From NCBI GenBank assembly GCA_902589095.1, contig CACIRR010000004.1, positions 1 through 44,367 on the forward strand: 44,367 bases of DNA. The letters are read 5' to 3'. The position numbers and the translations under genes are program-made. The notes beneath the pieces were generated by a model. It saw only the letters and a list, made by a program, of their open reading frames with translations, did no database searches and was not told where the DNA came from. Source of the DNA: an uncultured Alphaproteobacteria bacterium (lineage in GTDB: Bacteria > Pseudomonadota > Alphaproteobacteria > HIMB59 > GCA-002718135). The stretch's first letter is position 1. Each line of letters begins with the position of its first letter. Below are positions 11,675 to 14,854 of this stretch, piece after piece.

Positions 11675-13105
11675 TTAAGCGTCGTAATATAATTTAAATT
11701 CGTGCGGATGAGGCTGAATGTTAACAGGGTTAACTTCATTTTCTCTTTTATAATTAATGTATGTTTCAATTAGATCTTTAGTGAAAACATCACCCTCAAG
11801 CAAAAATGCATGATCTTTTTCTAATGCATCTAGTGCTTCTGCTAATGAACCTGGTGTAGAAGGAATTTTTGCCAAAACATCAGCGGGCGCTTCATAAATA
11901 TTTATATCTGTTGGCTCACCTGGATCTATTTTATTTTTTACACCATCTAATCCAGCCATTAACATTGCTGCAAATGCAAGATAAGGGTTTGCAGTTGGAT
12001 CTGGGCATCTGAACTCCATTCTTTTTGATTTAGGGCTAGATGAATAAGTTGGTATTCTAACTGAAGCCGTTCTGTTTCTTTGAGAGTAAGCGATATTTAC
12101 AGGCGCCTCAAATCCGGGAACTAGTCTTTTGTAAGAATTAGTTGTTGGTGCACAAAAAGCTAGAAGGGCAGGGGCATGTTTTAATATGCCACCAATATAG
12201 TTAAGAGCGATATCACTCAAATCAGCATAGTTACCTTTTTTATACATCAATGTATCACCATCTTTCCAGATACTTTGATGAACATGCATTCCAGAGCCAT
12301 TATCACCAAACAAAGGTTTTGGCATAAATGTTGCTGAAAGTCCGTGCAATTTAGCTACATTTTTTACCACGTATTTGTACTTCATTAAATCATCAGCCAT
12401 TGAAACGAGTGGGGCAAACTCTAAATCGATCTCTTGTTGGCCACCTGTTGCAACTTCATGGTGATGGGCCTCAACTGTAAGACCAATATCTTGCATAGTC
12501 ATAACCATTTCAGTTCTTACATCATGCATACTATCAACTGGTGGTAGAGGAAAGTAGCCCTCTTTATGACGAGGTTTATGACCTAAATTTGGCCCTTCAT
12601 CCTTTCCTGTATTCCAAGTGCCTTCATTTGAGTCAACCTCATGAAAAGCGAAGTTTGATCCTGAATCATACTTAACATCATTAAAAATGAAGAATTCAGC
12701 TTCTGGACCAAAATATGCAGTATCACCCATACCTGACGATTTTAAATATCCTTCAGCTTTTTTTGCTATGTTTCTAGGGTCTCTTGAATAATTTTCCTTA
12801 GTAATTGGGTCTTTAATATCACAATAAAAAGCTATTGTTTTTTCTGAAAAGAAAGGATCGATGTAGGCTGTTGTCACATCAGGAACAACTATCATATCAC
12901 TGTTTTCTATAGCTTGGAAACCTCTTACAGAAGAGCCATCAAAACCAAGACCATCTTCAAAGATATCTTCTTCTAAAAATTTTATCGGAATAGTGAAATG
13001 ATGCGTAGTTCCAGGAACATCAGTAAACCTCATGTCTACCATCTTAATATCTAAATCTTTAATCTGTTTTAATAATTCAGCTGGCGTTGAGCAGTTAAAT
13101 TTCAT
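11675..13105 (-). CDS. glnA: Glutamine synthetase type I
   Basis: [67 protein letters not shown] at the adenylylation-Tyr region. Confidence 0.97.
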
Positions 13106-13189
13106 AATTTATCTCCATCAAGTTAAGCAAACTCTAACCATTAGAGCTTACTAAATAATCATGCGCTAGTTATGAAAGTTCTGCTTTTA
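13106..13189 (-). promoter_or_regulatory. Candidate riboswitch expression platform in the glnA 5' leader
   Basis: Between the second aptamer and the glnA ATG the minus strand carries CTCTAA-TGG-TTAGAG, a perfect 6-bp hairpin (13132-13146), upstream of a Shine-Dalgarno-like TGGAG. Confidence 0.45.
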
Positions 13190-13190
13190 A

Positions 13191-13245
13191 AGCGTTCCTT
13201 CGGCAGGTGCCTACTTCCGACTCTTACTAATAAGAGTTGAACGAA
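13191..13245 (-). ncRNA. Glutamine riboswitch aptamer (glnA RNA motif), gene-proximal copy
   Basis: Minus strand TTCGTTCAACTCTTATTAGTAAGAGTCGGAAGTAGGCACCTGCCGAAGGAACGCT: CGTTC/GAACG P1, ACTCTTA/TAAGAGT hairpin, and CGGAAGTAGG...GAAGGAACGC conserved elements. Confidence 0.92.
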
Positions 13246-13259
13246 TTCAAACTTTTGCA

Positions 13260-13317
13260 TGCGTTCCTTCAGTCTTAAGACCTACTTCCGATCTAGGATG
13301 AACCTAAATTGAACGAT
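13260..13317 (-). ncRNA. Glutamine riboswitch aptamer (glnA RNA motif), promoter-distal tandem copy
   Basis: Minus strand ATCGTTCAATTTAGGTTCATCCTAGATCGGAAGTAGGTCTTAAGACTGAAGGAACGC: same conserved core with a different P2 sequence (TTTAGG/CCTAGA). Confidence 0.92.

Positions 13318-13358: not shown

Positions 13359-14854
<1,496 letters not shown>

Follow-up and report, generated by a model that had tools for sequence, protein, structure and literature searches.

According to a review of the glutamine-I riboswitch (RF01739), the class is restricted to cyanobacteria, and its associations with glnA, PII and amt genes are known from environmental sequences alone (PMC6316151). The tandem form has been described as well, as 157 doublets and 4 triplets (PMC9481103), and in the solved aptamer the ligand inserts G23 into the P1 helix, where it pairs with C60, a pair that exists only when ligand is bound (PMC11477058). 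Two other systems invite comparison: the tandem glycine riboswitch, in which two like aptamers are also joined by a structured linker, and the GlnD–PII–GlnE system of the sister family (HIMB59), which likewise couples glutamine sensing to glutamine synthetase.

The case that concerns us lies in a stretch of 44,367 nucleotides from an uncultured alphaproteobacterium (the whole of which we call the window), where a pair of aptamers occupies the gap between glnB and glnA on the minus strand. These aptamers resemble the described class in their full-length match to the model, their three stems, their invariant CGGAAGTA and GAAGGAACGC, and their position upstream of glnA or amt genes, and they differ from it in that the host is an alphaproteobacterium. 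As in the published tandems (PMC9481103), two adjacent like aptamers precede one gene; unlike in those tandems, they come with a conserved linker:block helix and a proposed start-masking platform, neither of them described in the papers searched. From the glycine riboswitch they differ in ligand and fold and in a linker that pairs beyond aptamer 2, and from the GlnD–PII–GlnE system in that the latter is a protein modification cascade, of which GlnD and GlnE were not found in the window's family. In other words, the aptamer class and the tandem arrangement are already known (PMC2864571, PMC9481103), and here they have a new occurrence; what goes beyond the known is the anticorrelation with GlnD and GlnE at the level of the family, the reuse of one device across a regulon, and the conserved complementarity of linker and block. 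The literature searched, which left most subscription journals and preprints outside its scope, contained no earlier mention of riboswitches in HIMB59/AEGEAN-169 or of the linker design.

A sequence-only reading of the locus had proposed two tandem units in the glnA leader on the minus strand, belonging to a motif found mainly in cyanobacteria and marine metagenomes, a statement that agrees with the published distribution (PMC2864571, PMC6316151). The covariance model bears this out: RF01739 matches both units over its full length (cmscan; E 1.9e-9 for aptamer 1 and 3.2e-11 for aptamer 2), each passing the gathering score of 35, with glnA downstream. Across the 68-contig assembly, there was no further RF01739 match above the cut-off, the next best reaching 12.4 bits (E 6.1). 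The device as we now see it runs to about position 13100, past the interval of that reading, which ended at the aptamers (Table 1).

Table 1. Features of the tandem riboswitch device and its neighbors, in window coordinates
Feature	Position	Strand	Evidence or detail
Glutamine-I riboswitch aptamer 1	13258..13317	-	RF01739 54.7 bits and covariation; P1 = CGTTC 13315-13311 with GAACG 13266-13262
Glutamine-I riboswitch aptamer 2	13189..13245	-	RF01739 61.2 bits and covariation; P1 = CGTTC 13243-13239 with GAACG 13197-13193
Linker, 5' strand of proposed enclosing helix P0	13246..13261	-	CATGC 13261-13257, AGTT 13253-13250, TGAA 13249-13246
Conserved block GAACTTTCATAACTAGCGCATG, 3' strand of P0	13160..13181	-	GCATG 13164-13160, AACT 13171-13168, TTCA 13176-13173
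Proposed anti-start TTTCATAA within block, alternative to P0	13170..13177	-	Duplex with TTATGAAA at start codon
12-bp spacer hairpin between block and ribosome-binding site	13126..13152	-	No U tract, tail TAACTTGA
GGAG, Shine-Dalgarno-like, of glnA	13113..13116	-	Sequence
TTATGAAA, glnA start region, partner of anti-start sequence	13100..13107	-	ATG 13105-13103
glnA, glutamine synthetase, proposed regulated gene	11675..13105	-	PF00120/PF03951
glnB, PII with altered T-loop, upstream of riboswitch	13359..13700	-	PF00543

A consensus scan for sigma-70 promoters found none in the glnB–glnA gap, and the leader may be co-transcribed or may have its own promoter. A terminator-like hairpin with a T tail (AGACAGCATCACTGTCT TTTTCTCC) also lies on the plus strand where glnB ends (13361-13377), antisense to the 3' end of that gene; it could have arisen by chance.

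How far is this arrangement kept among relatives? The closest genomes that bear a name come from uncultured Alphaproteobacteria, assembled from single cells or metagenomes, and the tandem pair precedes glnA in 58 of 58 alphaproteobacterial records with enough upstream sequence (L004-L058, L060, L066, L071 and L073, minus L028, whose contig end is too near), with glnB upstream of the pair wherever the contig reaches; the count includes L053, whose unit 1 escapes the strict core pattern and is yet plain in the sequence. Two like aptamers per leader are maintained in 106 distinct tandem leaders. The hairpins of the two units in the window had been read as different (TTTAGG/CCTAGA vs. ACTCTTA/TAAGAGT), as indeed they are, and as covarying rather than simply duplicated, and an alignment of 42 distinct tandem leaders, drawn from three gene families, says the same: both-sided changes occur at 15 of 32 pairs, located in P2 and P3 of each unit, and 99.2% of cells pair, a percentage raised by the inclusion of five invariant linker:block pairs, which add nothing to covariation. 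The covariation score is 0.398 vs. 0.177 in shuffles, and double-change cells number 214 vs. a shuffled mean of 71; neither value was reached in any of 500 shuffles, and sliding the partners by one to three columns lowers pairing to 23-39%. P2 and P3, then, covary in both units, and P1 and the core are invariant, including CGGA (the equivalent of G23) and C60, the linchpin nucleotides of the fold; A61 is also invariant after C60 in aptamer 1 (42 of 42), and in aptamer 2 C60 is kept and the following A is not. Judged by their sequences, these are genuine aptamers maintained by selection. As a detail, the aptamer 2 hairpin of one relative (L005:2010-2175) carries a short tandem duplication (CTTATTAATCTTATTAATAAGGG) relative to L004.

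The aptamers are only part of what is conserved, and the rest was absent from the sequence-only reading, as were the wider regulon and the anticorrelation with GlnD. The tandem linker consists of CATGC, one to four bases, and GTT, and the block after aptamer 2 ends in ATA[AG]CTA-N(1-2)-GCATG; the two occur together in all 106 distinct tandem leaders and in none of the 7 single-aptamer leaders. The duplex that they would form, P0, has a computed energy between −9.5 and −12.3 kcal/mol, surpassed in each of four groups by no more than about 2% of shuffled pairs, and RNAalifold found its CATGC:GCATG stem unprompted in both the three-gene and the glnA-only alignments. Its internal loop becomes smaller in step on the two strands, from 3x3 in glnA to 2x2 in amtB and 1x2 in the ATP-grasp leaders. 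The outer stem is invariant, with no compensatory changes, and because it never varies, covariation cannot test it; linkers and blocks swapped between groups pair as well as they do with their own partners, and the case for P0 therefore comes from co-occurrence, conservation and the comparison with shuffled pairs. Tandem glutamine riboswitches have been interpreted in the literature (PMC9481103) as independent aptamers, and here that reading would mean only a steeper, pseudo-cooperative response, in which the linker helix is a passive scaffold and some other pairing produces OFF; it gives no reason to expect that linker and block should keep company so strictly, or that the block should fit the start region of its own gene, as it does in glnA and amtB, and we consider it unlikely.

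P0 also shares a base with aptamer 1. The C60 of aptamer 1—the base directly after P1 in the crystallized sequence—is the first C of the linker and thus the first base of P0, and glutamine binding should compete with P0 because of this shared base. A helix below P1 was reportedly seen by Ren et al. in 2015 to melt on ligand binding, an observation that is no part of the case made here.

We lean toward the view, which we hold to be probable but well short of secure, that the tandem aptamers and P0 form a translational switch of glnA and that this RNA device stands in for GlnD and GlnE in the family. At low glutamine, the linker would pair with the block as P0, leaving the glnA start codon free and the gene ON. 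Glutamine would capture C60 of aptamer 1 and tighten both P1 helices; P0 would then open, and the freed block would pair across the spacer hairpin with the start codon, turning glnA OFF. We infer the binding of glutamine by these RNAs, its coupling to the opening of P0 and the OFF direction; the capture of C60 costs P0 at most one base pair, and the remaining coupling is assumed. Glutamine control of glnA, which had been proposed from the sequence, gains support from the location of the pair before glnA and its conservation in all related leaders, and OFF at high glutamine is what one would expect for glutamine synthetase and ammonium transport.

The direction could be reversed, with glutamine stabilizing P0 and turning glnA ON: P0 directly adjoins the P1 helices and might stack on them, and in cyanobacteria the same aptamer (type 1) turns a different gene ON with glutamine (PMC6316151). 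Such a switch would raise glutamine synthetase and the ammonium transporter when glutamine is plentiful, and the capture of C60 competes with P0, so that we regard ON as very unlikely.

The start-masked half of the proposed switch involves a second pairing of the block. The block's TTTCATAA is complementary to TTATGAAA at the glnA start, the amtB block TTTCCATA to the amtB Shine-Dalgarno sequence TATGGAG, and, in one ATP-grasp subclade, the block CCATAG to CTATGG. Taken alone, the block:start duplexes of glnA and amtB rank only with roughly the top 10% of shuffles; the duplex is unremarkable in the ATP-grasp leaders and weak in one of their subclades; the 8-bp duplex of glnA is near-isoenergetic with P0, yet only at that 10% level. 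When blocks and start regions are exchanged across gene families, those of glnA and amtB pair only modestly better with their own partners, and those of ATP-grasp show no such preference. The energy gap between P0 and the start-masked state, computed with both P1 helices held in place, is 0.7 kcal/mol in the window; in the other glnA leaders for which it was computed, it is mostly <3.5 kcal/mol and reaches 4.6 at the extreme, and in amtB P0 is favored by 2-7 kcal/mol.

Might the platform work on transcription instead, with the conserved hairpin 3' of the block serving as an intrinsic terminator favored by glutamine binding? A few leaders do have T-rich sequence after the hairpin (L128 TATAGTTTTTT, L137 TTATGTGTTTTT), and 9 of 36 glnA leaders have at least 6 T in the next 8 bases. 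The mean, however, is 3.3 T of 8 in glnA, only 1 of 13 amtB leaders reaches 6, and in the window the tail of the hairpin is TAACTTGA, with no U tract, and a terminator scan detected no minus-strand terminator at this locus. With the hairpin conserved but the U tract rare, we rejected a terminator platform, and we count attenuation as distinctly improbable.

More improbable still, to our minds, is a leader peptide, that is, an ORF starting right after aptamer 1 (GAAGGAACGC-ATG-CAA), the translation of which would gate aptamer 2. An SD-like AAGGA in the 3' strand of the aptamer and the presence of ATG CAA in nearly all tandem leaders speak for it. The frame, however, is not conserved: it runs for 39 codons in the window, sister glnA leaders encode MQKL*, those of amtB MQSY* or something longer, and ATP-grasp leaders MQVIKSFNLY*, and P0 explains the ATGC without coding. 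This candidate, too, was set aside.

The order offers its own comparison of the riboswitch with the protein sensors. The order sample comprises 162 genomes, 110 from the window's family (f1, the window's genome included) and 52 from the sister family (f2). RF01739 occurs in 106 of 110 f1 genomes vs. 0 of 52 in f2; GlnD occurs in 0 of 110 vs. 42 of 52, and GlnE over the cut-off in 0 of 110 vs. 40 of 52. Three of the four f1 genomes without the riboswitch have no glnA at E ≤ 1e-60, and the fourth contains no more of the gene than its 3' half. One f1 genome (G109, 93% complete), with no glnA at that threshold, no riboswitch and no place among the P-II matches listed, has possibly lost the whole glnBA locus. 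The targets of the cascade differ as well: P-II usually has two copies in f2 and one in f1; the f2 PII proteins that were read have the canonical T-loop KGHTELYRGAEY, and f1 proteins have an altered 16-residue T-loop or similar, with Tyr replaced by Phe in some; and the adenylylation motif of glutamine synthetase is NLYDLPPE in f2 and NLYAASDE or NIYEAPAD in f1. By sequence, the T-loop and the adenylylation motif of f1 appear to have decayed to match the absence of GlnD and GlnE. The PII of the window's own locus is without a canonical uridylylation T-loop.

The pattern suggests that RNA glutamine sensing took over from GlnD in the window's family, and such a replacement would be the cause of the anticorrelation. 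The two distributions amount to one evolutionary event, because both trace to one split between f1 and f2. SAR11 IIIa/LD12 have glnB without glnD (PMC10030771), and loss of GlnD alone therefore does not imply a riboswitch. A search for the NtrC family put no genome over the cut-off and is uninformative as to the presence of NtrC.

The device is also reused within the nitrogen-assimilation genes of the family. It precedes ammonium transporter genes (two neighboring copies in G078) as well as glnA, and it precedes a circularly permuted ATP-grasp gene (PF14403); no Amt gene was found in the window's own assembly, which is 66.6% complete. Amt genes of a second type in f1 have one aptamer only, with neither linker nor block (L085, L122, L132, L136), and the ATP-grasp gene of another alphaproteobacterial family, f10, is likewise preceded by a single aptamer (L180-L183). 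The PF14403 platforms thus differ, f1 having the tandem and P0 (L115, L090-L113 and others) and f10 the single aptamer and a CTCTTTC:GAAAGAG hairpin by the start. Riboswitches in two families would link to glutamine an ATP-grasp gene that is otherwise unexplained. In ATP-grasp leaders (L090, L093 and others), a small ORF of ~17-20 codons lies between riboswitch and ATP-grasp start, and in L090 its stop overlaps that start (TGATG), which suggests that the two are translationally coupled. As to carriage by phages, the linker pattern had no match in IMG/VR, and a distant blastn of the leader had none in phage records.

To whom, then, does this device belong? AG-337-I02 is the name used in PMC8692485 for an AEGEAN-169 genus of the order HIMB59, and one related record, L048, is AG-337-I02; the order of the window is probably HIMB59/AEGEAN-169, and we infer a place for the window within the AG-337-I02/AEGEAN-169 group. 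The broadest statement that we would make, tentatively and with slightly less than even expectation, is that in one HIMB59/AEGEAN-169 family tandem RNA sensors replaced GlnD, and that P0 joins the two aptamers in a single translational switch, of which copies came to stand before glnA, two amtB genes and an ATP-grasp operon. Glutamine riboswitches linked to glnA and amt, tied before only to uncultured environmental sequences, can now be assigned to a lineage of ocean bacteria that is both abundant and recognizable. The locus offers a specific, testable design in which two aptamers would share one expression platform, and the family offers a natural case of RNA glutamine sensing where GlnD and GlnE are missing, with its sister family as the control.
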